A stretch of 64,000 nt of DNA, taken from NCBI RefSeq assembly GCF_030758755.1, contig NZ_CP132387.1, positions 124,001 to 188,000 on the forward strand, in the 5' to 3' direction. The notes under the pieces were generated by a model. The model saw only the letters and a list, made by a program, of their open reading frames with translations. It had not been told where the DNA came from and did not search any database. Shown here piece by piece: positions 2,731 to 60,702 of this stretch. This DNA is from Bartonella apihabitans. Lineage in GTDB: Bacteria; Pseudomonadota; Alphaproteobacteria; Rhizobiales; Rhizobiaceae. The position numbers and the translations under genes were made by a program. Every line of letters begins with the position of its first letter. The stretch's first letter is position 1.

Positions 2731-3715
2731 CAGGCATAAAATCCGTCATCAGGCAGTTTTCCGCCCATAATTGCGGAATTTTGTTCAATAAGAACATTGA
2801 AAAATGTTTCCAGTGCCGGTTTGACTTCACTTGCACTATGAACAACCAGATGACTGAAAGCGACGGATGCGGCAATCAGGTGTGGCGGAAAATCAAGGAG
2901 ACCGCTGATCTCGTCGGCTGCTTTTTCGGGGTCGGCTTTAATTTTTTCAAGTGCCGTTGAAAAACATGCATTGAGCGCTTCTATTTTCTTCTTTCCCTCA
3001 TCGCCTTCGAAACCTTTGCCTACAACAAGACCGGCTTGCGGAATGGCATCGGTTTTCGAAACTTTTTCCCAAAGCTTTTGAATATCAAGAGCACGAACAA
3101 TTTTTTTCGGGGATACAGAGCTCATGGAAATCACGGTCGAGGCGGCTGGCTCCACAATGACTGCTGCATCAACCCGTCCGATCATGAGAAGCGGCATAGC
3201 TTCGGGAAGGCTCCCCGTATATTGTATGTCGATTGCATCCGGCTTGATGTCATATGCCTTTAAAATTGCCTGCATAATATAGTCGGGCATATCATTTTTG
3301 AATGGTACAGCAAGTTTTTTGCCGACAAGATCCTGAAGTGTTTTGATATTGGATGCTTCCGGTGCGACGATATAAAGAAGTCCGTCTGTAAGAATATTCG
3401 CCAATCTTACACCAAGGCCTTTATTATATAAATTTGCGCCGCTATAACTGGGCAAAATGGCCATATTGATTGAGCCGGAACCGAGTCCGGCTCTGATCTG
3501 ATCGGGATTATTCCAGACTTTGAATTGGCAACCGGGTAAGAGTTGATCAAGCATGCCGGTTTTTACTGCATAAGCGGCAACGAGAGATGGCCCGCAGGTG
3601 GCCCCCAAATGACGGGTTTATTTTCTTCTGCAACCACATTGGCGGGAAATGCGCAAACAACGGGAAGAAGTGAAGCACCAATTAAAAAATGACGGCGTGT
3701 TTGAGTGAGCATCAT
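2730..3715 (-). pseudogene. ABC transporter substrate-binding protein (NMT1/SsuA-like), frameshift near N-terminus
   Basis: Periplasmic binding protein of the importer at 1.2-2.7 kb. From the ATG at 3715 (second ATG at 3712) the first frame encodes a signal peptide with a twin-arginine-like RRHFLIGAS and a following AEENKPVIWG, then runs into a stop. The mature protein (GPSLVAAYAVKTG to the end) is in another frame. The G5 run at 3602-3606 is the joint: one more G would read VIWGATCGPS continuously. The frame can also begin at a TTG (3608), which would give a leaderless protein. Fold resembles NMT1/SsuA proteins; ligand unknown. First gene of the SBP-permease-ATPase-nnrS operon. Confidence 0.75.
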
Positions 3716-3822
3716 CCACCTCGATTGGCAAATACCGGACCAAAAATAACAGAATGGGAAGTCAGGTATTTTTGATTAAGATTTAAATTTTAAATAAGAG
3801 TTTATCCCTCAAATTAAAAATT

Positions 3823-6640: not shown

Positions 6641-7258
6641 CTATTCCTCTTCTATCCGAAAAATCAATTTCAGATAGGCCGAAAATGGATTTTGCTTCTT
6701 CCGTTTCGGGTTCAATCGTCTGGCAACTGCTTCATTAGCCCCAAGTGCCATTAACCCTTCGGCAACAATCGAGCAATCAAAGGGAGGTTCTATATTTCTC
6801 ATAGCAAACAGGTGTTGCACGAGCTTCGTATAGAACGATTTTTGTTCGTCCATAAGATTATTATAAATTTTTACAAATTTTGGATGGCGCAAAGCATGAA
6901 GTTGCATTTCAAGGAACAGAATTGTGTGGGAAATATTCTGATCATTTCGTTCAAACCATAGGATCATATCATTCAAGGCCTTTTCAAAATTATCTCCTGC
7001 ATCATCAATGAGCTGTTTTCGTGAATTTGCCTCGAATGATTTATACTGCTCAAGAAGCTCTATAAGAACTTCACCTTTATTATTGAAATTGGAATAAAAG
7101 GCTCCTTGTGAATAGCCCGCTTTATCGCAGATTCCTCTGATGGAGGTTGCCTCAAAGCCCAATTCCGTAAACAGCATGCGTGCAGCCTCCAGCAGGTTCT
7201 GGCGGGTCTCTTGCTGGCTTTCCAATCTTGTTTTGCGCGGTTTTATCTGTGTGACCAT
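6641..7258 (-). CDS. TetR/AcrR family transcriptional repressor
   Basis: A 205-residue regulator. The N-terminal helix-turn-helix is clear: ARMLFTELGFEATSIRGIC (about 27-45) followed by KAGYSQGAFYSNFNNK, which matches the TetR recognition helix. The C-terminal ligand domain is not assignable. It is divergent from the SDR gene starting at 7357. The 98-bp gap contains two palindromic sites centred on CAATTG, a typical arrangement in which the repressor controls itself and its divergent neighbour. Ligand unknown. Confidence 0.88.
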   Translation of the reverse strand: MVTQIKPRKTRLESQQETRQNLLEAARMLFTELGFEATSIRGICDKAGYSQGAFYSNFNNKGEVLIELLEQYKSFEANSRKQLIDDAGDNFEKALNDMILWFERNDQNISHTILFLEMQLHALRHPKFVKIYNNLMDEQKSFYTKLVQHLFAMRNIEPPFDCSIVAEGLMALGANEAVARRLNPKRKKQNPFSAYLKLIFRIEEE

Positions 7259-7312: not shown

Positions 7313-7345
7313 ATATCAATTGATATATGAATTTCAATTGATATT
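7313..7345. promoter_or_regulatory. Tandem palindromic operators, probable TetR binding sites
   Basis: A perfect 14-bp palindrome ATATCAATTGATAT (7313-7326) is followed by a near-palindrome around a second CAATTG (7330-7345, one mismatched pair). The centres are 18 bp apart. Position between the divergent TetR and SDR genes supports an operator role; binding by this TetR is inferred. Confidence 0.55.
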
Positions 7346-7356
7346 TGGAATCTTTG

Positions 7357-8385
7357 ATGAAGAAAACAGTTTTCGTAACCGGTGCTACCGGACTATTAGG
7401 CAATAATCTGGTTCGCCAATTGATCGACGCAGGCTATCATGTCAAAGCACTGGTCCGGTCGCGACAAAAGGCAAATAAGCAATTCGTCCCTCATGATGAA
7501 CTTGAAATTATTGACGGCGATATGACCAATGTCGCAAGCTTTGAAAGCCATCTCAATGGCTGCGAAACCGTTTTTCATACCGCTGCATTTTTCCGCGATA
7601 ATTATAAAGGCGGCAGCCATTGGACTGATCTGGAAAAGATCAACATTAATGGTACAAAATGCCTGTTGGAAGCGGCCTTAAAAGCCGGTGTCAAACAGTT
7701 TGTCCATGTCTCGTCGATCGCAGTCCTCGATGGTGAGGCCGGCACATTGATTGATGAGACATGTGATAGGGACATAGAAAATTCCGATGATTACTATCGA
7801 AGCAAAATCATCAGTGAAAGAACAGTCAGAGAATTTGCTGCTCAATATCCGATGATGAAATGCTATTATATTTTACCGGGGTGGATGTGGCTGGTGATCT
7901 GGTGGACCTCGGCAGGACAACTTGCGCTTGATGTCATGAACGGGAAGTTGCCGGCCATTGTTCCAGGGACCTTTTCGGTTGTTGATGCACGGGATGTTGC
8001 CGCTGCCATGATCATGGTCACACAGAACGGCAAGTCGGGAGAACGTTATCTCGCAGCAGGGCGTCACATTCATATGAAAGACCTTGTATCCATGATCGGT
8101 CATTATGCCAATGTCAAAACGCCAACAAAGACCATATCAATGCCGCTATTGTATTGCATCGCTGTTTTTCAGGAAATTTATGGCAAGCTTACAGAAAAGC
8201 CCATTTTATTATCATTGGCTTCGGTCCGTTTGATGGCAAGCCAATATGATAGAACGCATTTCAGCAGTGAAAGATATGAGAAAATTCTGGGGCTTCAATT
8301 CAGACCTTTGGAGCGAACTCTGGCAGATACATTGTCTGATCTGAAAAATAGACAGCCGGATAAATTGGAAGTTTGTCCGCAATAA
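7357..8385 (+). CDS. NAD(P)-dependent epimerase/dehydratase, extended SDR (dihydroflavonol-reductase-like)
   Basis: Cytoplasmic Rossmann-fold enzyme of about 342 residues. The start is placed at ATG 7357; an upstream in-frame TTG at 7345 would overlap the operator. The glycine motif TGATGLLG (8-15) and catalytic YYRSK (YxxxK) are present, plus the SVVDARDVA element common in DFR-like SDRs. One oddity: after PGWMW, where relatives have a GPGD-type loop, this protein reads LVIWW, and the lost GDL is visible in another frame around 7890-7905. This suggests two compensating indels. Substrate unknown; likely repressed by the divergent TetR. Confidence 0.85.
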   Translation: MKKTVFVTGATGLLGNNLVRQLIDAGYHVKALVRSRQKANKQFVPHDELEIIDGDMTNVASFESHLNGCETVFHTAAFFRDNYKGGSHWTDLEKININGTKCLLEAALKAGVKQFVHVSSIAVLDGEAGTLIDETCDRDIENSDDYYRSKIISERTVREFAAQYPMMKCYYILPGWMWLVIWWTSAGQLALDVMNGKLPAIVPGTFSVVDARDVAAAMIMVTQNGKSGERYLAAGRHIHMKDLVSMIGHYANVKTPTKTISMPLLYCIAVFQEIYGKLTEKPILLSLASVRLMASQYDRTHFSSERYEKILGLQFRPLERTLADTLSDLKNRQPDKLEVCPQ

Positions 8386-9097: not shown

Positions 9098-10764
9098 ATG
9101 GGAAGACTTCTCCATTCTAAATGGATATTGGCTTTATCGGCTCTTCTCTTGTCGGTCTTTAATGTGAGTAATGCGATGTCCGATAAATTATGTTTATATA
9201 GCGCGACAGATTACGGCGACGAGGCTACGGACAGTGCTTGCCCGCATATTGATACCACATCCGGTTTATATTTATCGTGGGTAGGAACGATAGATAGATC
9301 CGAACAAGAACCGGCTTCGATCCAGTTGGAGGGTGAATATAAAGCAAACCGGTTTTTCCCGTCAAATACAGTTCTGACATTCGCTTCAACGCCGGCAGCT
9401 AATGACATAAAAGTAAAAAGTGGAAATACTAAACATCAGGAAACACCCGAAGAGCAAAATCATAATTTGTTAAGTCGGATGGACTGGTCTTTATTTTCGC
9501 CGGAAGGACGCGTTAGACTTCAGGAGAAAAATGGAATTCTAAGTTTGACTTGTCATTCCGGAAAAGAACATGCCGGTTTGGCTCTGAATGCCCCGTTCGG
9601 AAACTTTCCGCAAACAACCAATTCATCTTTTATAATAAGTGGCAGAGCAGACGGTCGTTTCAAATTGGGTTTTGCAAACAAAAATAATTCCGTACCGGAT
9701 GATGCAAGGACCTTTCCTGTTCATTCGGAAAAGACATCAAAGACTGATGATCAGTCGGATTTCGATTTGTTTGAACTGCCATCTTCAGAAAAAACCAGTA
9801 GCAAAATTATAATCGAATGCCCTGATGAGGCCGCACATTTCGATATTGCCGCTATAACGATTAAAACTGCAACGACTGAAAATTCAATCGCTACGTGGGT
9901 TTGGCACAAACAGAACTGGCTTCACTCACCCGCTGGTTTACTTGACTGGGCACAACAATATCATATCAGCAAGCTTTACGTTCAGGTCGATATTCAGGAT
10001 AATGTCATTGTCGATGAAGAACAGCTCGTCGAGTTTCTTGGAGAGGCACATAAAAGATCAATTGATATTTATGCGGTTGAAGGGGATGCGGATATGATTG
10101 TCGGAAAAGGTCAAGATCTTGCATTTCAAAGAACCCGATCCTTAGCGGCATTCCAGAAACGGCTTCCGGAAAATGCAAAATTTGCGGGACTGCAATATGA
10201 CATAGAGCCTTATACCGATCCGAAATATTCGGAAGATCCATCCAGAATGTGGGTTAACTGGGCAGCAACTCTTATGAAAATGCATGAAATCTGGGGCGGA
10301 CCAATTGATGTCATCATTCCGTACTGGATACAGAATAGCAATGACGGGAAAAATGCTCTCGAAAGTATCAAGGATCTGGGAAGTTTTACGGTTATGATTT
10401 ACCGCACCAAGGAAACGGAAATAAATACTATTTCTGCGCGCTGGTTAATGTGGGGGAAAAATTCAATACAAAAATTTCTGTCGCGTTGGAAAACGGACCG
10501 GTTAACGGGCAGGCAAAACTTTATTTCACGCCTGCGAAAGAGACAAACAAACAGAATTACGGATCTGTTTTTCTCGTTCTTGCAAGGGCTGCAAATGGAG
10601 GAGAGAAAACAGTCTATCAACTTGACCATATCGAACAACCGGAAGCTAGCAAAATAAGCTTTCTCAAGCGGACAGAAGACTTAAGCGGCGTTCTCTCGCG
10701 TTTACGTCCTTATTTCAAAGCCTTTAGCAGTTTTAACGGATTAGCAATTCACGGCCTTCTTTGA
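9098..10764 (+). pseudogene. Secreted TIM-barrel, glycoside-hydrolase-like protein of exopolysaccharide locus (one frameshift)
   Basis: Starts at ATG 9098 behind a GGGAACCAGG ribosome site. Residues 1-26 form a signal peptide (cleavage after VSNA). Residues about 30-260 are a Ser/Thr-rich region that looks like a beta domain. From about 265 the protein resembles a (beta/alpha)8 barrel: WVWHKQNW, LYVQVDIQDN, IYAVEGDADM, FAGLQYDIEPYTDP. The acidic pair in YDIEPY is a candidate catalytic site. At G5 10452-10456 the frame breaks; one extra G gives WGEKFNTKISVALE and continues to a stop at 10764, about 555 residues in total. Position before a GT2 synthase locus suggests a periplasmic polymer-processing role, by analogy with PgaB or BcsZ. 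No family name can be given. Confidence 0.7.
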
Positions 10765-11018
10765 TTGAAGCTATGACGAGAGACCGAAGTTACAACGGCA
10801 CATCGGGATAATTTTAACCTGTGGTAGAGTCTTTTTAAGACAATTTCGATTTGAAATCACAACAGGTCAAAAAGTTTTTAAGAGCAATCTCTGGAAAAAT
10901 AGGATAAAAGATTTATTTAAGATTGGCTGATATTTTGTTGGGTCGCAATATATACAAATAAAAATTCTTGTTAGCGAACAAGTGTAATTTTGTTTCTGAC
11001 GAGAGGCATGGTGGTTAA

Positions 11019-13874
11019 GTGGCATGCCATAGAGGCGATGATAAACTATTTTTCAGACTGTTGATAACGATTATTTCGTCTTCAGGAGTGTTTTTTACCG
11101 CGTCAGCATTTGCGCAGGTGCCGTCAGGAGCACGCGCAAATGATAATTTTTGGTCAGTTCGCAACCATCAGAAACTGGCAGATGCAAAATCCATGGCACT
11201 TGGTGGAAAGCCTTTGAATTTTGATATTCCACTGGAAAAAGCGTCACCCCCCGGAGTTAAAAGCCGCTCTCTATTGAATAATGATGTCAAAGTTCTTTTT
11301 GAACAGGGCTATCAAGCGCGACAACAGGGGCATTATAAAGAAGCCATTGAGAAACTGCAAAAAGCTTCTGCTTTATCACCCGACAATCCGGATATTTTAA
11401 GAGAATTGGGGTTATCTTTCATGGGGCTCGGCGAGCTTGACAAAGCCGAGCCGATATTTCGTCGACTGCTCGAAATGGTTCCGGATGATATCGAGGTCAA
11501 AACCGGTTTGGTAAAAATAGATTACGCTCATAACAATCTTGAAGAGGCAAAGCATTACACTGAAGAAATATTGGCATTAAAGCCGGATAATGAGGAAGTG
11601 AAGTCACTTCAAACAGAAATATTGAATGCAATAGTTTTTCAGAAAAAGCTTGAACATACGACCAAAGCGAGTTCCGTTGTCCGCTCTCCATTTATAAATG
11701 ATTTGAAATCGATAAATCTGTACTTTGGTAAAAAAGATTATGACAAAGTTGAGCAAAATGCCGGATCCGACAATTTACCCGACATTATAAGAGAAAACCG
11801 GACGAGCAATTATTTTTTCGGGCTTTCTCCCGCCATCCGGTCAAATGTTCCTGATCGTACTGTGGCTAGTGATTTGGCCAAACGAGGTTTTATATTTCTC
11901 ACAATGGGCAACGTGGAGGAAGCTCAAGCAGATTTCGAAAAAGCTTTGCGTTTAGCGCCAACGCTGAGCTTGGCACAACTGGGAAAAGCCGCAATATTGT
12001 ATTGGCAAGGTGATTTCTTTTCAGCCAAGGAAATGGTTGATCATGTCATATCAATGGAGCCGGAAAATCCAATTGCGCGCGACTTCAAATTCCGTATAGA
12101 CGCGGCCATAAAATTTTCACAGACGGACGATAAAAATGGCAATGAAAACCTGTCTGGAGAACCATTGAGTGATGTTTCGGACAACGAGCAGAAAACTGTG
12201 GGGCAGTTATACGAAATTGGCAGCAATGAACGCAAAGCCCAGCATTTTGATCTTGCCAAACAGCATTTTGAAGCTGCTTTAGCTCTCGAACCGGACAATG
12301 CGGATATCCTTGTTCAATTAGGGCTTACACTTCTTGCGCTAGGAGATCTGGATGCGGCAAAAGAAAATTTTAGTCGGGCTTTAATGATAGCACCAGATTA
12401 CACCGATGCGAATTTGGGCTTGGCACGTATCGCCTATTGGAAGGGCGAACTTGATAAAGCAAAAGCCCTTTGCGAAATGGCATTGTCGCAGTCACCCGAC
12501 AATGAAGAATTGACGAGCCTGTTAAAAGACATTGAACGCGCGATCGCTTCAAAAAACAAAATCGCCAAATATGGCGGTACCGGCAATTCGTCCAATGGAA
12601 CGGGAAAAGATAACCCGCAGCTCGTCGAGAGTAATCATCTCGCTCAACAAGCGGCGCAGATTGTTGCTTCAGGGAAAAACTTCGCCCATGCGGAAGCTCT
12701 TTATCGACAGGCTTTATCGCTAACGCCTCAAAATGTTGATCTGTTAATAAAGCTCGGCAATGTTCTATCGTTTCAAAAGAAATTTGCTGAAGCCGATAAG
12801 ATATTTGATCAGGCTCTCGATATTTCGCCGGATGCTCTCGAAGCCTCGCTTGGCAAAGTTAATGTAGCGCTTTGGCAAAATAATTATTCTCTGGCCAGAC
12901 ATCGTATTGATGCATTGTTGCTTCGTTACCCTGAAAACGAAGAGGTGGCTTTGTCCGACGCGGCGCTTTATATGGCGGAACATCAATATAAGCGGGCAAT
13001 CACAGTCTATAACCGCATTTTGGAGAAAAATAGCAAAAATCTTCAGGCATGGTTAGGTAGAGGAGATTCCAAACGTGGCCTTTTACGTGATCGGGAGGCA
13101 GTTAATGATTACGATCAGGCCCGTATAATTGCCCCTGACAGTAAAGAAACTCTCGAGCGTATTCAAAGGCCTATCCGTAAACGGTGGCGGCTTGACATTG
13201 ATAGTACTTACAGCGAATTGACCGCACCTTATAAAAACTGGCGGGAAGGTGGCGTGGCGCTTTCCTATCAATTGTCAGAAACAACGATATTGACCGGCCG
13301 TTTAGGTCTTTCCAATCGCTTCAATATGGATGACCAGCAGTTCGAGCTCGCAATTGCCCATCAATTCCGGCCGGCTGTTTGGGGTTATTTGGCGGGGGTC
13401 GTGACACCGGATGCAGATTTTCTGGCACGATATATTTTACGCGCGGGTGGTAGCAGCAATATCGGCAGACTGGGAAAAGTCAGCATGCTCGGAGCCACAC
13501 TCGATACCAAAAGCGAGTGGTATGACAATGGCGTTGTCAAAACTATAACTCCCGGCTTGAGGCAAACTTTCTTCAAAGATCGTATGACCATATTTGCCCA
13601 ATGGATTAATGTTTTTGACCAGAAGAACCAACATTCGGGAGGCTATCTTTTGCGAGCAGATACCAATCCTGTCGACCGGTTTCACTTTAATATAGGATAT
13701 TCGAGTACTCTGGAATTGTCAGGTGATGTTCTTATCCCGACAAAGACGATATTCGGAAATATCGCGTTAGATATAACAGAAGACTTAACAATTGGTGCTA
13801 ATCTGGCCAAGGAACAACGTACGAATGCTTATAATCGCTTGGTTTATGGTTTGAATTTGACGCGGCGTTTTTGA
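11019..13874 (+). CDS. TPR protein with C-terminal YaiO-type outer-membrane beta-barrel
   Basis: A 951-residue exported protein. The first usable in-frame start is GTG 11019, since TAA precedes it at 11016; the leader then reads LFFRLLITIISSSGVFF before ASAFAQ. Residues about 90-700 are repeated TPR helices, with repeated LSPDNPDIL, LEPDNADIL and IAPDYTDA junctions. From about 715 to the end is a beta-barrel ending LNLTRRF, with YaiO-like TYSELTAPYKNWREGG. TPR plus barrel is the design of BcsC and PgaA, which carry polysaccharide across the outer membrane. Its stop overlaps the next start (TGATG). It probably forms the export pore of this locus. Confidence 0.88.
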   Translation: MACHRGDDKLFFRLLITIISSSGVFFTASAFAQVPSGARANDNFWSVRNHQKLADAKSMALGGKPLNFDIPLEKASPPGVKSRSLLNNDVKVLFEQGYQARQQGHYKEAIEKLQKASALSPDNPDILRELGLSFMGLGELDKAEPIFRRLLEMVPDDIEVKTGLVKIDYAHNNLEEAKHYTEEILALKPDNEEVKSLQTEILNAIVFQKKLEHTTKASSVVRSPFINDLKSINLYFGKKDYDKVEQNAGSDNLPDIIRENRTSNYFFGLSPAIRSNVPDRTVASDLAKRGFIFLTMGNVEEAQADFEKALRLAPTLSLAQLGKAAILYWQGDFFSAKEMVDHVISMEPENPIARDFKFRIDAAIKFSQTDDKNGNENLSGEPLSDVSDNEQKTVGQLYEIGSNERKAQHFDLAKQHFEAALALEPDNADILVQLGLTLLALGDLDAAKENFSRALMIAPDYTDANLGLARIAYWKGELDKAKALCEMALSQSPDNEELTSLLKDIERAIASKNKIAKYGGTGNSSNGTGKDNPQLVESNHLAQQAAQIVASGKNFAHAEALYRQALSLTPQNVDLLIKLGNVLSFQKKFAEADKIFDQALDISPDALEASLGKVNVALWQNNYSLARHRIDALLLRYPENEEVALSDAALYMAEHQYKRAITVYNRILEKNSKNLQAWLGRGDSKRGLLRDREAVNDYDQARIIAPDSKETLERIQRPIRKRWRLDIDSTYSELTAPYKNWREGGVALSYQLSETTILTGRLGLSNRFNMDDQQFELAIAHQFRPAVWGYLAGVVTPDADFLARYILRAGGSSNIGRLGKVSMLGATLDTKSEWYDNGVVKTITPGLRQTFFKDRMTIFAQWINVFDQKNQHSGGYLLRADTNPVDRFHFNIGYSSTLELSGDVLIPTKTIFGNIALDITEDLTIGANLAKEQRTNAYNRLVYGLNLTRRF

Positions 13875-14902
13875 TGATCAACATTAACATTCAATGGATA
13901 ATGGGGGCAATTTTTATAGGCCTTTTTTATGCCTGTCTGGCAGTGTTGATGCTGGTCGTCATGATCGTTTTTCATTTCAGGATGGTCAACAACCGCAAGC
14001 GGATGATCAAACTCAGAGAAAAATTCGAGACCTTTTTGGATAGTCTGGAACAGGGCGAAATATCTTCAAAACAGAAGAAAAAATTTTCAACGCGGCAACT
14101 TATGCGTCTTGTGCCTTACTTCCGGGCTATTCCGGATAAAGAAAAGCATCAATTGGCGATTGAATATTTTATTCAAACAGGTTTGGTTAAAGTCTTAGCC
14201 AAAAAAATGCGTTTTTCTTCACGTTCGAAACGTGTGCAAATTATCGAAACCCTTGCATTGTTTCCGGATAAAACTGCTCAAAAAGTTTTGCATGAAGGGT
14301 TGAAGGATGTTTCGCAAAAAGTTCGTCTCGCTTCGGCTATCGCTTTAATGGAGAATGATGCTCCCTGGTGGCTCTATGATGTTGTTTCAAGCCTGCCGAA
14401 TTCGAAAACAAACGTAAGTAAATATTTAAAACCTGATGTGGAAAATGAAAGTCGTGTTGAAAAATTGGCCAATGTGGCAAGTCTAACAATTATGCCACCG
14501 CTCATGCGCTGCGATGCAATTAATATCTTGGCCGAAAATGCGGGCTTTGAAACTTTATCGTTAGCGATGACACAAAAAATCAATATTGCGAGCAACAACG
14601 ATTTATCTTCTTCCAAAGAATACAGAGAACCAATTTTCAAGATACCGGAAGACGATAAGGCCGATGACCGCTATAGCGAAACCGTTTCGTTGGATGATGA
14701 GGAAATCGATATCGAACAATTTAACAAGGTGTTTGCAAATCTTCTGGATGATGATGCGTTACCGGTGCTTTATGCTGCTGGCAAGGCATTACTGAAGACG
14801 GGAGATCGTGGGCACAAAATATTGGAAAATACTAAACAGAATGGAAGCGCACGAGCAAAAAGGGTGGCTGCTTTTTTTCTGAGGAGCGAGAAAATAGAAT
14901 GA
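13874..14902 (+). CDS. Membrane-anchored HEAT-repeat protein
   Basis: Begins at ATG 13874, overlapping the TPR gene stop. It has one strong N-terminal transmembrane helix (IMGAIFIGLFYACLAVLMLV, about residues 9-28), a basic juxtamembrane stretch, then alpha-helical repeats. The unit VQIIETLALFPDKTAQ followed by GLKDVSQKVRLASAIAL is typical of HEAT/PBS repeats. The C-terminal third is acidic (DDEEIDIEQ). The last codons overlap the glycosyltransferase start (ATGA). No enzymatic motif is visible. It may be a scaffold joining the synthase to the TPR pore; this is inference from gene order. Confidence 0.8.
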   Translation: MININIQWIMGAIFIGLFYACLAVLMLVVMIVFHFRMVNNRKRMIKLREKFETFLDSLEQGEISSKQKKKFSTRQLMRLVPYFRAIPDKEKHQLAIEYFIQTGLVKVLAKKMRFSSRSKRVQIIETLALFPDKTAQKVLHEGLKDVSQKVRLASAIALMENDAPWWLYDVVSSLPNSKTNVSKYLKPDVENESRVEKLANVASLTIMPPLMRCDAINILAENAGFETLSLAMTQKINIASNNDLSSSKEYREPIFKIPEDDKADDRYSETVSLDDEEIDIEQFNKVFANLLDDDALPVLYAAGKALLKTGDRGHKILENTKQNGSARAKRVAAFFLRSEKIE

Positions 14903-16331
14903 TTGACTCGCTAAAGTTCTGGCTTTTTACCGTAACGTTTTCCATTATATTTGTTTTTTTCAGTTTGTGGGTCATCATCATGCTCGTTCAGCTGTTTTTG
15001 GCCCTTTATGCCTATTTCAGTCGTGCCTCAGTGCCGAAGAATGGTCTCCTTTGGCACCGTTATTTTGATACCGCACCACCAATTTCGATCATCGTTCCGG
15101 CTTATAATGAAGAGAAAAACATCGTCCAGTCGGTTTATTCTCTCATCTCGCTGGACTATCCGGCTTTCGAGGTCATCATCGTCAATGATGGTTCAAAAGA
15201 CAACATGCTTGACGAATTGATCAAAGAATTCGAACTGGAAGAGAGCAACAGAGAATATGAAACAATTCTGGCTTTCAATCCCATTCGCAATATCTATGTT
15301 TCAAAAAAATTTGGTCGTCTTGTCGTAGTGGACAAAGAAAATGGTGGCAAGGCAGACGCGCAAAATGCCGGCATCAGCGTTTCGCGTATGTCGCTTCTTT
15401 GCATGGTGGATGCCGACACTATTCTGGAGCCGGATGGCCTTTTGCGCATCTGGCCCAGCCTTTTATTGACGATCCGGCGCGCACAGTTGCGGTGGGCGGG
15501 AGTGTAATGATAGCCAATGGTTCCAAAATCAGTTCCGGACGATTGACGCGCGTTGCCATACGCTTCAATTTCCTTGTTTATTTTCAAATTCTTGAATATT
15601 TGCGTGCGTTTTTAATGGCTCGTGTGGCGTGGAGTTACGTCAATTGTTTAACATTGATATCGGGTGCTTTCGGCGTCTTTAGCCGGCGTGAGGTTATGGC
15701 TGTTGGCGGTTATACGCGGGGATCCGTCGGCGAAGATTTTGATTTAGTGATCAAGCTACATCGATATATGCTGGAAAACAAACGCGATTATCGTATTACT
15801 TTTGTGCCCGATGCTGTTTGTTGGACGGAAGCACCGGAAAGTCTTTCTGTTCTTGCCAAACAACGCACGCGTTGGCAAAGAGGCGCTTTGGAAGTTTATT
15901 TTCGCCATCAGGATATTATGTTCAACAGACGCTATGGACGCATTGGTTTTGTCGGTATGCCGATGGTGTTTGTTATTGATGTTGTAAATCCGCTGCTGGA
16001 ACTGTTCAGCTATATTCTTTTTCCGATTGTCTTTTATTTCAAAGCCATGACGTTCGAGTTTTTACTCTCGTTCATTTTTATGGCGTTTATGTATGGAATA
16101 TTCGTCAGCTTGTTTTCAATATCGCTTGAACAAATGCATCTTGGTTTTTTGCGTAAAGCAAAATACATATTTATTCTTTTTCTCTCTTCAATCATAGAAT
16201 GTTTCGGCTATCGTCAAATCAATACATTCTGGCGGATAAAAGCCGCCGGAGAATATTTTTCAGGCAAAACTTCCTGGGGCGAAATCAAACGCACCGGTTT
16301 TGACGAGGTCAAGAAAAAAAAGGCCCAATAA
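14899..16331 (+). pseudogene. Membrane GT2 polysaccharide synthase (BcsA/PgaC-like), one frameshift
   Basis: Processive family-2 glycosyltransferase of the inner membrane. It has an N-terminal membrane helix, then SIIVPAYNEEKNI and VIIVNDGSKDN (UDP-sugar binding), ENGGKADAQNAG, VDADT (DxD, metal), GEDFDL and QRTRW (the QxxRW motif of processive synthases), and C-terminal membrane segments. At about 15448-15451 the frame shifts: DGLLR in frame one must join LAQPFIDDP in the other, which needs one additional base (for example a C). A second in-frame start near 15399 cannot give an enzyme, as it lacks the nucleotide-binding half. Start by ATGA overlap with the HEAT gene. Confidence 0.82.
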
Positions 16332-16405: not shown

Positions 16406-17407
16406 TTATTTAACGACGAAACCATGCTTATATGGATCGCGATCGTCGATAAATATTGTGTTGAAACCTGTCATCCTCGCCCATCCTGCAACGGAAGGAA
16501 TAATGGCCGGAAGTCCCTCTACATCGGTCAATTTTTCAACACGACCTTCAAAGATAGAACCGATGATCGATTCATGGACAAAATTATCACCGGCTTTCAG
16601 AATTCCCTTGGCTGTCAATTGTGCCATTCGTGCCGAGGTTCCCGTGCCGCAAGGCGAGCGATCAATGGCTTTATCGCCGTAAAACACAGCATTTCGGCCA
16701 TTGGCTCCGGGCTTTGTCGGTTTTCCTGTCCACATAATATGGCTCAAGACATTGATTTCGGGTTTTTGCGGATGCTGGAAGCTGTAGAGTTCATTCAGTC
16801 TTTTCCGCAATACAGGACTCCATGCAATAAGCTGCAACGCATTATAGTCGGCCATATCGGTGTAATTTTTTTGTGGTTCGACAATTGCATAAAAATTACC
16901 ACCATAAGCGACATCGACTTTAAGCAGGCCCAAGTCCGGACATTCGACCTCGAGGGCCTGTTTGTAGAGGAAAGCCGGCACATTTGTCAGGCGAACTTTT
17001 TCCACATAAAGGCCATTTTGCTCATATGTAATGTCGACTTTTCCAGCCGGAGTATCCAGACTGAGTTTTCCCGGAATGCGCGGTGTAATAAGTCCATATT
17101 CGATGGCCATTGTTACAGTTCCGATTGTGCCATGTCCGCACATAGGCAAACATCCGGAAGTTTCGATATAGAGGACGCCGATATCACAATCATCGCGTGT
17201 CGACGGATAAAGAATAGAGCCGGACATCATATCATGCCCGCGCGGTTCGAACATCAAACCGGTTCTGATCCAGTCGAATTCACGTAAAAAATGCAGGCGC
17301 TTTTCCATCATGGTTTTGCCTTGCAGAAGCGGACCGCCACCGGCAACCAGACGAACAGGATTACCACATGTATGACCATCAATACAGAAAAACGAATATT
17401 TCGCCAT
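16406..17407 (-). CDS. 4-hydroxyproline 2-epimerase (proline racemase family, PrpA-like)
   Basis: Interconverts trans-4-hydroxy-L-proline and cis-4-hydroxy-D-proline, the entry step of hydroxyproline breakdown. The protein has 333 residues from ATG 17407; an upstream extension lies inside the oxidase gene. Both catalytic cysteines are present: Cys90 in MCGHGTIG and Cys253 in SPCGTGTSA. This marks a racemase/epimerase rather than the dehydratase branch, which lacks one of them. ATG follows the oxidase stop by 1 nt with GGGAGG overlapping that gene's end. Neighbours (D-amino-acid oxidase, DHDPS-type deaminase) strongly support the hydroxyproline role over a simple proline racemase. Confidence 0.92.
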   Translation of the reverse strand: MAKYSFFCIDGHTCGNPVRLVAGGGPLLQGKTMMEKRLHFLREFDWIRTGLMFEPRGHDMMSGSILYPSTRDDCDIGVLYIETSGCLPMCGHGTIGTVTMAIEYGLITPRIPGKLSLDTPAGKVDITYEQNGLYVEKVRLTNVPAFLYKQALEVECPDLGLLKVDVAYGGNFYAIVEPQKNYTDMADYNALQLIAWSPVLRKRLNELYSFQHPQKPEINVLSHIMWTGKPTKPGANGRNAVFYGDKAIDRSPCGTGTSARMAQLTAKGILKAGDNFVHESIIGSIFEGRVEKLTDVEGLPAIIPSVAGWARMTGFNTIFIDDRDPYKHGFVVK

Positions 17408-17408
17408 G

Positions 17409-18650
17409 TCAAAACCTCCCGGCACGAAATGGATAAATTGAAAGAGCAGGCTCTTTATGTTCAATGAGATTGTGTATGAGACGGGCGGTGGCTGCCGATT
17501 GAGTCAAGCCAAGGTGGCCATGACCGAAAGCATATAATATTCGCCGGCTGTTTTTAGCATAATCAATAACCGGTAAACCATCGGGGATAGACGGCCGATA
17601 CCCCATCCATTCCACCCCGTTTTCCAGCTTCAAATCGGGGAAAAATTCCTTCGCTTTTTTCAGCATGGCTTGCGAGCGTTTAAAATTGGGAGGCAGCTCG
17701 AGCCCGCCCATTTCGACTGCTCCGCCAACTCTTATTCCGGTACTGAGCGGAACAACAACAAAACCATGACCACCAAAGGTTACCTGATGTTGAAGCTTGA
17801 GACTATCAACCGGTAATGTCGTATTATAACCGCGTTCGGTATCAAGTGGTATATTATCGCCGAGAAGGCGGGCAAAAGTGTTTGACCACGCACCACAAGC
17901 GACAACCACAAAATCGCTCCGGATTTTTTCCGCGCCGGTTGTCAGTGTGACGCCGCCTTCATCTTGGGATAGATCAAGAACCGGCAATTTGATAAATTTT
18001 GCGCCCAGTCCACTCGCATAGGACCACAGGGCTTTACCGAACAATTTCGGGTCCTTCACATTGCGCCAGGAAGGAACATAGGAAGCTTTTACAAATTGTT
18101 TTGAAAGGCCGGGAACCATATCGTGCAATTCATCAGAATTGATATGGCGTACTTTTATGCCGAAACTTTCACGCCAATTCCAACTTGGAAGTGCTGCCTG
18201 AAATTCTTTTTCGCTTTCATAAACCTCGAGTTCACCTTCGGTTCCGAGTTTGTCCAAAAGTTCCGCTCTGGTGAGCAAACCCATCATTTCTTGCTCTGCA
18301 AGACGCATGATTGCAACTTGGGCTTTGATGGTTTCCAATTGGGCTTTTTTCCGGCTTGCCTTCCAGAAACGAATGAACCAAGGCATAAGTTTTGGCAAGT
18401 ATGTAGGACGGATTGTGAACGGTCCCAAGGGATCCATCATCCATCCGGGTAGTTTCCTTAATATACCTTTTGACGCAATCGGTAATACGTCGGTAAAGGC
18501 AAATGCCCCCGCATTTCCTGCACTTGTTTCTTCACATATCCCGCTTCTGTCAATGACGGTAACATCATATCCGTTTTCAGAAAGAATGGCAGCCGTAGCG
18601 ACGCCGACAATACCGCCTCCGATTATTGAAACCGACTTTTTCGCCTGCAT
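17409..18650 (-). CDS. FAD-dependent D-amino-acid (cis-4-hydroxy-D-proline) oxidase/dehydrogenase
   Basis: A 413-residue DAO-superfamily flavoenzyme. The dinucleotide-binding motif IIGGGIVGVATA lies at residues 9-20, with the acidic end VTVIDR at 30-35. The C-terminal motif YAFGHGHLGLTQSAATARL, which contacts FAD, is intact. In the hydroxyproline pathway it oxidises cis-4-hydroxy-D-proline to pyrroline-4-hydroxy-2-carboxylate. A good GGAGG precedes the ATG at 18650. Single-subunit length matches DadA-like enzymes rather than the multi-subunit type. Function is assigned from its place between epimerase and deaminase. Confidence 0.88.
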   Translation of the reverse strand: MQAKKSVSIIGGGIVGVATAAILSENGYDVTVIDRSGICEETSAGNAGAFAFTDVLPIASKGILRKLPGWMMDPLGPFTIRPTYLPKLMPWFIRFWKASRKKAQLETIKAQVAIMRLAEQEMMGLLTRAELLDKLGTEGELEVYESEKEFQAALPSWNWRESFGIKVRHINSDELHDMVPGLSKQFVKASYVPSWRNVKDPKLFGKALWSYASGLGAKFIKLPVLDLSQDEGGVTLTTGAEKIRSDFVVVACGAWSNTFARLLGDNIPLDTERGYNTTLPVDSLKLQHQVTFGGHGFVVVPLSTGIRVGGAVEMGGLELPPNFKRSQAMLKKAKEFFPDLKLENGVEWMGYRPSIPDGLPVIDYAKNSRRILYAFGHGHLGLTQSAATARLIHNLIEHKEPALSIYPFRAGRF

Positions 18651-18787
18651 CGCTTATTATCCTCCCCCGATCATTATGATTTTTGTCTTTCGGGCTGATG
18701 CAATCATGTAAATTTTTAATCCGGCCGGCGTCACGAATAAAAATTCGCTCACCTCTTATCCGGCCAGATGTTATTCAGAAAAACTAT

Positions 18788-19753
18788 TTATGCGACTTTG
18801 TATTTTTGAACTGCTCCCGGCAATTCACTCCATTTCTTATACCATGTATCAAACAGCTTAAGCTGCTTTTCGACAAATCCACGCTGGCTTTCTGTGAGTT
18901 CGTCGGTTTCATTGAAATGGAGCTTATAGGCTTTTTCGCCTTTCAAAACCATCATATATTTGAAAAATAGTACAAGATCGGAACCGGCATCGAATGATGA
19001 AAGAATAGCCAGAGCTTGCTCGAGTTCTTCAGCGCGTTGGCGTGCTTCGACATCTCCCTTTGCGGCGGCTTCACACAGACGGCATAGGTGGATGACTTCT
19101 TTCGGCAAGACATTTCCTATTCCGGTGATTGCGCCTGTGGCACCACAATTGACATAACCATGGACAACTGTTGTATCAACACCGATCATAAGAGAGACAT
19201 TGTCGTCACGGCTTGTAATGTTTTCGGCGGCGTAGAGCATGTCATCAGGCCCGCCGAATTCTTTGAAGCCGATCAGGTTTTTATGTTCTGCCCGTAAAGC
19301 GAAAAAAAGATCGGCGCGCGTAGCAAATCCATAATAGGGGCTGTTATAAATTACGGCAGGAAGGTCGGGAGCTGCCGATAAAATAGCTTTGAAATGGTTC
19401 TTCTGGGCGGACACTACACTACCACGCGAGAGAACGCGCGGAATAACCATCAAACCTTTTGCACCAACCTTCTGGGCATGAGCCGCATGTCTGACCGCAG
19501 TTTTCGTGTTAACCGCACCGGTGCCGACAATGACCGGAATTCCAGCTTTAACCAGGCTTTCAACGCCTTCCATACGTTGTTCATCGGTCAAGAGTGGCCA
19601 GTCGCCCATTGATCCGCAATAGACCACAGCCGACATTCCTGTGGCGATCAGCTCTTTCGCTTTTGCAACAAGAGCAGAAAAATCCGGTGTCCGGTCCTGT
19701 TTGCAAGGCGTCATTAATGCAGGGATGACCCCTGAAAATATACTAGAATCCAT
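18788..19753 (-). CDS. Dihydrodipicolinate-synthase family enzyme, probable 1-pyrroline-4-hydroxy-2-carboxylate deaminase
   Basis: A class I aldolase-fold (beta/alpha)8 enzyme of 321 residues. It shows YCGSMGDWPLL near residue 45, YNSPYYG (the Tyr region of the family) and the Schiff-base lysine in IGFKEFGG. In hydroxyproline clusters this paralogue converts pyrroline-4-hydroxy-2-carboxylate to alpha-ketoglutarate semialdehyde and ammonia. It is the first gene of the minus-strand deaminase-oxidase-epimerase unit and is divergent from a GntR regulator. A ribosome site AAGGGGAA precedes ATG 19753. True DapA is less likely in this context. Confidence 0.87.
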   Translation of the reverse strand: MDSSIFSGVIPALMTPCKQDRTPDFSALVAKAKELIATGMSAVVYCGSMGDWPLLTDEQRMEGVESLVKAGIPVIVGTGAVNTKTAVRHAAHAQKVGAKGLMVIPRVLSRGSVVSAQKNHFKAILSAAPDLPAVIYNSPYYGFATRADLFFALRAEHKNLIGFKEFGGPDDMLYAAENITSRDDNVSLMIGVDTTVVHGYVNCGATGAITGIGNVLPKEVIHLCRLCEAAAKGDVEARQRAEELEQALAILSSFDAGSDLVLFFKYMMVLKGEKAYKLHFNETDELTESQRGFVEKQLKLFDTWYKKWSELPGAVQKYKVA

Positions 19754-59374: not shown

Positions 59375-60702
59375 TCAATTAAGGACGCCGGCGTCGTTCA
59401 AATTGAGGTGCTTTGTTTCTGTTGCCAAGAAATACGAGACGACCAGACCAAAAAAAGTAACAGCCGCAGCAGCATACATTGTGTCTGAAATTCCGAACTT
59501 ATCAAGCGATAATGGGACAAGATATGTGCCGATTGCTGCGCCAATACGTGACAACGATGTGCCGATACCGACCGCCGTTGCGCGAATTTCTGTCGGGAAA
59601 ATCTCGTTCGGGTAAACCAGTTGCAGAACTTGCGCACCTCCGATGAATACCGCATAAGCGCCAAAAAGAATGAGGATGACGATTTCCGAACTGTTATAGA
59701 ACATACCCAATAAAAACAGTGCAATGCCTGATAACAGAAAGCTATACATCAACATCGGGCGGCGCCCATGACATTGATGAGCTGGGTTGCAATAATACAT
59801 CCCACCACAAATAGAAATGTAATCGCGATAGATCCGAACGACGCCCATTCACCCCGCAAATTCAAAGCGAGCAAGACTTTGGGAGCAAAGGCATAAACGG
59901 CAAAAACGGGAATGACAGAACATGTCCAGAATGTGGAAACAAAGAACATTCGTTTTCCGTAACCTGAATGAAGCAAATCAAGAAACGAGACTTTTTGTTC
60001 GGCCGGTTGTTCAGGTAAATGATCGAGTGAATATTCCTCGCCATAGACATTTTTGATGACTTTTTCAGCTTCGTCAATTTTACCCTGGGCAATCAGCCAA
60101 CGGGGAGATTCAGGGGTGCCGAGGCGAATCAGAAATAATAACAGTCCGATAATTGCGGTACTTGCCAGAATATAACGCCAGGCATCTTCTCCTCCCGCGC
60201 GCAAGATCATATCGCCGACGAGGTAAGCAACCGCAGCACCTGCAAACCACATGATTGTGAGCGTTGCGAGCAACGGGCCGCGGGCTTTTTTGGGTAAAAA
60301 TTCGACGAGCAAAGCTGTCGCCACAGGATATTCGATGCCAACAGCTACTCCGATGAAAAACCGGTAAATGAATAAAGCATAACCTGACTGAACCCAGAAT
60401 TGTCCGAGCGAGCAAATGATGAATAAAGTCGGACCGATGAAATAAGGTTTTTGCCGACCGAATTTTCCGGTTATCCACCCGCCGACAAAACCACCGAAAA
60501 AAATGCCGATTAACGCTGAAGCGGCAACCATGCCTTGCCAGAAATTTGTCAGGTGTAATGCCGAAGTTATCTGTAACATTCCAACCCCGATAATGGACAG
60601 GACATAACCGTCGACGAATGAGCCACCACCGGAGCGAACACTTAAAAGACGATGAAAATTATTCAATTTTATATCTTCGACAGATTGCACTATAGTGCTC
60701 AT
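59375..60702 (-). pseudogene. MFS transporter, sugar-porter type, one frameshift
   Basis: About 442 residues if repaired. The first frame (from ATG 60702) encodes the N-terminal half and more: GWITGKFGRQKPYFIG, YRFFIGVAVGIEYPVATAL, RLGTPESPRWLIAQGKI, ending IATQLINVMG. The rest (RRPMLMYSFLLSG, YPNEIFPTEIRATAVGIGTSLSRIG, to ATETKHLNL) is in another frame. One extra G in ATGGG at about 59765-59767 restores NVMGRRPMLM, the standard loop of the family. Family members carry sugars, inositol or organic acids. The cluster with GntR-DHDPS-ALDH suggests its substrate feeds that pathway. Confidence 0.82.

Follow-up and report, generated by a model that had tools for sequence, protein, structure and literature searches.

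A glycosyltransferase paired with a HEAT-repeat protein in Bartonella apihabitans: a candidate class of synthase-dependent polysaccharide system

A synthase and its HEAT-repeat partner

What part does a HEAT-repeat protein play in a locus that otherwise looks equipped to make and export a polysaccharide? We asked this of four plus-strand genes, here called A to D, in a 64,000-nucleotide stretch of the Bartonella apihabitans genome (contig NZ_CP132387.1, positions 124,001 to 188,000), which we refer to as the window and whose own coordinates we use. A encodes a secreted protein, B an array of tetratricopeptide repeats (TPR) followed by a YaiO outer-membrane barrel, C a HEAT-repeat protein, and D a family 2 glycosyltransferase (GT2). 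In our judgement, the locus probably encodes a distinct class of synthase-dependent polysaccharide machine, with the HEAT protein as its cytoplasmic control subunit. It belongs to a widespread family in which a GT2 is paired with a HEAT protein, usually near a receiver gene, and which apparently has not been described previously.

From the open reading frame list and the DNA, the order on the plus strand is A-B-C-D, with A starting at 9098 and D spanning 14899-16331. From B to D, successive genes share a few bases at their ends (B 11019-13874, C 13871-14902, D from 14899), and an ATG at 13874 in C also overlaps the stop codon of B. Between the end of A and the start of B there is a gap of ~250 bases. 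The order and the overlaps are those of the original prediction, which had described four plus-strand genes, three of them overlapping; however, A and D are not single intact frames in the window. D is divided between 14899..15507, with an N-terminal membrane segment and the first part of the GT2 domain (VNDGS, DAD), and 15399..16331, with the rest of the domain (GED, QRTRW) and a C-terminal membrane region. D matches GT2 families of Pfam, alignments give it the full motif set D, DxD, ED, and QxxRW (here QRTRW), and membrane segments lie on both sides of the glycosyltransferase domain. A GT2 synthase with QxxRW had been proposed, which holds for family and motif but not for an unbroken gene.

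Gene C (13871..14902) is homologous to the upstream neighbours of related GT2 genes. Its match to the HEAT family PF13646 (25.4 bits) is just below the Pfam cut-off of 27.7, as are those of two homologues in the same genus (L030 and L031, 18.9 and 16.9 bits), while homologues from three other loci pass it (L063, 90.5; L126, 107; L141, barely, 27.8). Together with a single strongly hydrophobic N-terminal segment, this is consistent with the earlier description of C as a membrane-anchored HEAT protein.

To place C in a wider setting, 398 Pseudomonadota genomes were scanned with a D profile. Thirteen, including the window's own, scored at least 379 bits, with the next at 187 and the rest at 142 or less. 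When species genomes were scanned with 15 aligned D proteins, at least 513 relatives were confirmed, and the best 80 of these plus the 13 Pseudomonadota loci make up the 93 loci considered here, which are the top of a ranked list and not a random sample. Neighbouring genes were labelled with profiles built in this analysis, their seeds checked with Pfam.

A homologue of C lies directly upstream of D in 85 of the 93 loci by an iterated C profile (L112 and L115 begin at the GT2, and the upstream position is outside both). Even in the first round, the profile matched 62 of 74 non-seed upstream reading frames at E<0.001. Elsewhere in the loci it matched only 5 of 1416 other reading frames of at least 200 amino acids, all five belonging to the system: a HEAT gene elsewhere in L100, a reading frame at L152, a piece at the contig edge in L118, and the HEAT-GT2 fusions of L108 and L137. 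L155, by its length and its alignment with these two, is a third fusion. C is also directly upstream of D in 15 of 18 Bacillota loci and in all three archaeal loci, groups in which the YaiO profile found no barrel (0/18 and 0/3, as well as 0/3 in Actinomycetota loci). Three features point to C acting directly with the synthase: the two proteins can be fused, their genes are nearly always adjacent, and C is kept in groups that have no outer membrane.

On which side of the membrane this might occur is suggested by flanking charges. Of 85 C homologues, 81 have an N-terminal membrane segment (only 6 of the 85 show another strong hydrophobic stretch), and in 73 of those 81 the side after the segment is more positive than the side before it. 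By the positive-inside rule, the more positive flank of a membrane segment faces the cytoplasm, and so we infer that the HEAT domain would be cytoplasmic, on the synthase side with the catalytic domain of D. The suggestion that a HEAT protein sits between pore and synthase is right for the gene, but the flank charges place the HEAT domain on the synthase side.

Receiver (REC) domains are common around these genes. On the same strand and within 8 kb, one is found in 80 of 93 loci, compared to 14 for the opposite strand, and in 47 of the 93 the nearest is a short reading frame (<170 amino acids) starting at most 3.5 kb upstream. In addition, kinase domains occur in 28 of 93 loci and GGDEF domains in 16. 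The response regulators near the relatives suggest that the system receives a signal input.

We propose the following mechanism. Judging from its motifs and hydrophobic segments, D would be a processive GT2 embedded in the membrane, where it would polymerise a nucleotide sugar on the cytoplasmic side and thread the chain across the inner membrane. The constant partner of D would be C, a HEAT solenoid anchored in the membrane and lying in the cytoplasm, which would bind the synthase and determine how active it is. In most relatives C is probably signalled by the response regulator encoded nearby, although it is the pairing of genes that we observe and the mechanism that we deduce from it. In this locus the regulator gene is missing, and control through C would be constitutive or in trans; the latter is possible since the genome holds 18 REC matches elsewhere or farther off. 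The TPR array of B, by its family, may guide the polymer across the periplasm and the YaiO barrel let it out, and A, secreted and probably glycan-cleaving, may trim or release it. Overall, a sugar polymer is probably built and exported through the outer membrane. A partial parallel comes from Myxococcus xanthus, where the single-domain response regulator EpsW directly activates the polysaccharide enzyme EpsZ (PMC12802240). The likeness lies in a single-domain regulator acting directly on a polysaccharide enzyme; however, EpsZ belongs to a Wzx/Wzy pathway as its phosphoglycosyl transferase, with neither HEAT protein nor processive GT2, and the comparison is an analogy only.

Several observations weigh against the control-subunit reading. 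No response regulator was found in 13 of the 93 loci, nor was one found near the window locus itself. The 93 loci head a ranked list, and a same-strand excess of REC domains is partly expected of operons. In the first round of the C profile, 12 of 74 upstream reading frames missed E<0.001 (eight without any hit, mainly in Bacteroidota), so that their homology rests on iteration. As assembled, both A and D of the window are broken. Lastly, 10 of the 13 Pseudomonadota genomes with a strong D (of 398) have no match to A, which is therefore not a core part and is optional in the wider family.

A more ambitious reading, which we put forward tentatively as a serious possibility, is that of an old and widespread bacterial and archaeal synthase class switched by two-component phosphorelays, in which the GT2 is gated by a dedicated, membrane-anchored HEAT subunit and this subunit is in turn the target of a response regulator. 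The parts for the outer membrane (YaiO, TPR) and the tailoring enzymes (A, sulfatase-like proteins, UDP-sugar dehydrogenases) would be lineage-specific additions, and this genus would have lost the regulator and lengthened its TPR array. If true, this would be a control mode beside the binding of cyclic di-GMP by PilZ domains or co-polymerases. Polysaccharides made by such synthases form biofilm matrices, and most of those that are well studied are under cyclic di-GMP control (see a survey of such operons, PMC7112194). A HEAT-GT2 class with response regulators nearby would add a control principle, and it would offer a signature by which matrix polymers so far unrecognised could be sought in many phyla. 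In Bartonella of the insect gut, a habit that we presume for this organism, the locus could bear on gut colonisation.

Broken frames and conservation in the genus

Does the locus still work in this strain? On one hand, neither A nor D lies in a single frame here, A is split in a second genome (G021) as well, and most genomes of the genus are without the locus, the HEAT profile for C matching in 8 of 71, the window's own counted. These observations favour a locus that is inactive here, with A and D as pseudogenes, a reading that we consider rather unlikely. On the other hand, the genes are kept in a constant arrangement where they occur. The order A-B-C-D is found in all seven genomes in which the whole locus was read (the window's own, G021, G007, G006, G008, G823, and G828); in the eighth genome with C (G018), D and C are on separate contigs. 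A is intact in five of the seven, being split in the window and G021, and D in six, the window being the one exception. G823, which is listed under the same species and is 97.5% identical to the window in DNA, carries all four genes intact. The four genes proposed as one system do keep their synteny within the genus, and the pairing of HEAT protein and GT2 is conserved across phyla.

Selective constraint was estimated as the ratio of nonsynonymous to synonymous change (dN/dS). Between close relatives it is 0.02-0.07 for whole D, 0.11-0.18 for C, 0.11-0.26 for B, and 0.12-0.29 for A, and the two pieces of D in the window give 0 and 0.03 against G021, a strong constraint on both that speaks against pseudogenes. 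The distant pair G007-G006 is saturated (C gave 0.41 at a dS of 1.7; A, B, and D gave no value). Given the same order in six other genomes and ratios of 0.02-0.29 between close relatives, the locus is more than a chance assembly of genes.

How the breaks arose can be addressed by comparing whole assemblies. The window's genome has 2.74 Mb in three contigs, in a genus whose genomes span 1.4 to 2.9 Mb. Among 78 long G021 genes (at least 250 amino acids) that have a match in sampled stretches of this assembly, 14 are disrupted in it, a count in which one disrupted gene appears twice because two stretches overlap, and intact genes may as well; 11 of the 13 different disrupted genes change frame. 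The reverse count, of this assembly's genes disrupted in G021, is 10 of 69, also from sampled stretches. Against G007 the sample is small: two of 15 long genes are disrupted in this assembly, and both are A and D of the locus, which favours an inactive locus, while three of 18 are disrupted in G021. The idea of decay specific to this locus is weakened by the G021 comparison and by the intact G823, but not by the small G007 comparison (2/15). Since G823 has the four genes intact and this assembly carries broken genes elsewhere, with mostly frame changes among them, the breaks in A and D may be errors, and assembly errors are the likelier cause.

Within the window, further genes are split relative to G021 at 2733-3754 and 59453-60312 (minus strand), and a GGDEF gene of this assembly (G000:C3:511850-512321) has its family match spread over two frames. 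Such further split genes suggest either many insertion or deletion errors or decay throughout the genome. In another genome (G014, locus L032), a GT2-like stretch with seven stops and 37% identity is possibly a decayed relative; its origin from this locus was not confirmed, as scanning L032 in six frames yielded no more than a piece of 17.5 bits.

Exporter, secreted protein, and kind of product

Could the HEAT protein instead be structural, a scaffold linking the synthase on one side with the periplasmic TPR protein and the pore on the other? HEAT solenoids are commonly scaffolds, and C lies between the pore and synthase genes in this genus and in other loci with YaiO. However, the retention of C in Bacillota and archaeal loci without YaiO and the flank charges that place its HEAT domain in the cytoplasm make this improbable, and we continue to regard C as a control subunit of the synthase.

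The pore itself is well recognised. B (11019..13874) starts with an N-terminus that is signal-like by hydropathy, followed by TPRs found with Pfam and by a YaiO barrel at residues 723-951 (~13185-13871). The barrel scores 99 bits on TIGR04390, against a cut-off of 32, over positions 1-230 of the 230 in the profile, and it also passes PF19413 (24.5 bits against 23.9). This agrees with the TPR and YaiO-type barrel pore named in the original prediction. NF007302, the model of the NfrA phage-receptor exporter, gives B 36 bits, far below its curated 1223. Whereas B resembles the YaiO family (E. coli YaiO and TPR-fused members) by passing both cut-offs, it differs in that its barrel is fused to a long TPR array within a HEAT-GT2 operon: it is 929-951 amino acids long in the genus, compared to 247-583 in a set of 18 YaiO matches. 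Across the 93 loci YaiO barrels are present in 41, including 26 of 29 from Pseudomonadota and 8 of 21 from Bacteroidota.

Gene A is harder to name. Its first frame (9098..10657) matches intact homologues over residues ~1-453 and then departs from them, its tail being out of frame; the remainder is in a second frame (10450..10764), of which residues 2-104 align with the C-terminal ends of intact homologues of 554-555 amino acids. A signal-like hydrophobic N-terminus (residues 9-28) agrees with a secreted protein as first described, and the motif YDIEPY is present. No Pfam family scored above its cut-off for the long frame in the window or for the homologues, in which W-x-W and D-[IV]-E-P are conserved. 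The A family profile does match nearly all of PDB chain 10yv_A (116 bits, E 1.3e-32), named 'Putative GH97 from Cellulomonas fimi'. This match is also what supports the putative TIM-barrel fold of the original prediction. The name looks doubtful, since the chain has only 275 amino acids and GH97 enzymes are much larger. A is likely a glycan-cleaving enzyme, judging from these matches, and one might guess that its D-x-E pair is catalytic.

Homologues of A accompany the GT2 in 14 of 93 loci, from Paenibacillus, Neobacillus, Jeotgalibacillus, Geobacter, Nitrospira, Pseudohongiella, an Elusimicrobium, and others. In the 398 Pseudomonadota genomes, A exceeds 150 bits in three (G000, G072, and G518), all among the 13 with a strong D, and five weaker matches (27-60 bits) are all outside those 13. 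Five other genomes (L235-L239) have weaker A-like proteins of 673-726 amino acids; other profiles of the system were sought in stretches of a few kb around these frames and none were found, and perhaps they belong to another polysaccharide system. In L235 the next gene begins, by eye, like a membrane-fusion (HlyD-type) protein.

These partners also bear on what D makes. Many GT2 enzymes are not polymerases, and D might make a glycolipid or short glycoconjugate that B exports. We consider this quite improbable, given that QxxRW, the membrane segments flanking the glycosyltransferase domain, and the TPR-barrel and secreted glycosidase-like partners all fit a polymer.

If a polymer is made, is it one of the known ones? 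PgaABCD/IcaADBC is similar in having a GT2 of PgaC type by best curated match, a TPR-barrel exporter, and a secreted glycan-acting protein. The PgaC/IcaA model TIGR03937 is indeed the best curated match for D, but at 144.2 bits (intact homologue L028) against a cut-off of 422, with five D proteins of the clade at 137-144; B scores 104.2 bits on the PgaA model TIGR03939 against 366.65. The PgaD model had no match among the scanned locus proteins, no polysaccharide deacetylase (PF01522) was found in the locus, and the only genome matches to that family (C3:531724, 1693527, and 2052708) fall outside the window (C3:124001-188000). In a quick tree, which held no verified PgaC row, D and its relatives form a clade apart from the other GT2 rows, with the genus sister to Mesorhizobium and Parvibaculum (support 98) in an alphaproteobacterial group, itself on a long stem. 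Despite the best-match model and the PgaA-like layout of B, a Pga (poly-N-acetylglucosamine) system whose synthase and pore have drifted this far is very improbable, with scores so low, no deacetylase, a separate clade, and a HEAT partner foreign to Pga.

Bcs cellulose systems share a GT2 with QxxRW, a TPR and barrel exporter, and a glycosidase-like partner; BcsZ is their glycosidase, comparable to A. However, D scores 55.5 bits on CelA/BcsA against a cut-off of 699.1 (and 58 on NodC against 550), B scores 66 on BcsC against 858, and a profile search of the genome gave no match to BcsB (PF03170) or PilZ. On these scores and missing parts a diverged Pga or Bcs locus was rejected, and the proposal of a polymer export system distinct from both gains support.

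Xanthomonas xagABCD is a third comparison, made by published description only. It is described as an operon with a glycosyltransferase whose biofilm polysaccharide is neither xanthan nor poly-N-acetylglucosamine (PMC3609779, PMC3826837, PMC3542200), and in which xagA and xagB have adjacent locus tags; the words HEAT repeat and YaiO are absent from PMC3609779. On such a description, Xag is neither adopted nor excluded as a name for this system. The operon survey cited above (PMC7112194) covers five synthase-dependent polysaccharides, and HEAT and YaiO are absent as whole words from its main text. A HEAT-GT2 polysaccharide system had no recognised description in the literature searched, from which most subscription papers were out of reach; two mentions of HEAT were irrelevant, one an entry in an effector table (PMC3826837) and the other from an unrelated operon (PMC10434189).

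Neighbouring genes here and in relatives

Among the relatives, some neighbours may modify the product. Proteins of the sulfatase superfamily occur in 11 of 93 loci, and the GT2 proteins of Chryseobacterium and its relatives carry a domain of this superfamily fused to their C-terminus (PF00884; L141:8830-12258). By length and profile the same fusion is present in L133, L134, L139, and L150, which hints at decoration of the polymer. UDP-sugar dehydrogenases are found in 6 of 93 loci, all Bacillota: a UDP-glucose/GDP-mannose dehydrogenase lies near the GT2 at L126:11181-12554, and likewise in L116, L121, L122, L130, and L160, a hint of uronic acid in the polymer of these six. The full set is also present in L093, a metagenome bin labelled Klebsiella pneumoniae. 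The label may be wrong, as the GT2 is on a long branch inside a proteobacterial group.

In the window, the locus is flanked by genes of other kinds. Just upstream is an HpnA-like NAD-dependent epimerase (7345-8385, plus strand; 191 bits, below the cut-off of 367.65) beside a TetR regulator (6641-7258, minus strand), a pair that is kept there in G021, G007, and G823. Downstream, on the minus strand, 16406-19753 looks by eye like hydroxyproline or amino-acid catabolism, with racemase-like, FAD oxidase-like, and DapA-like products.

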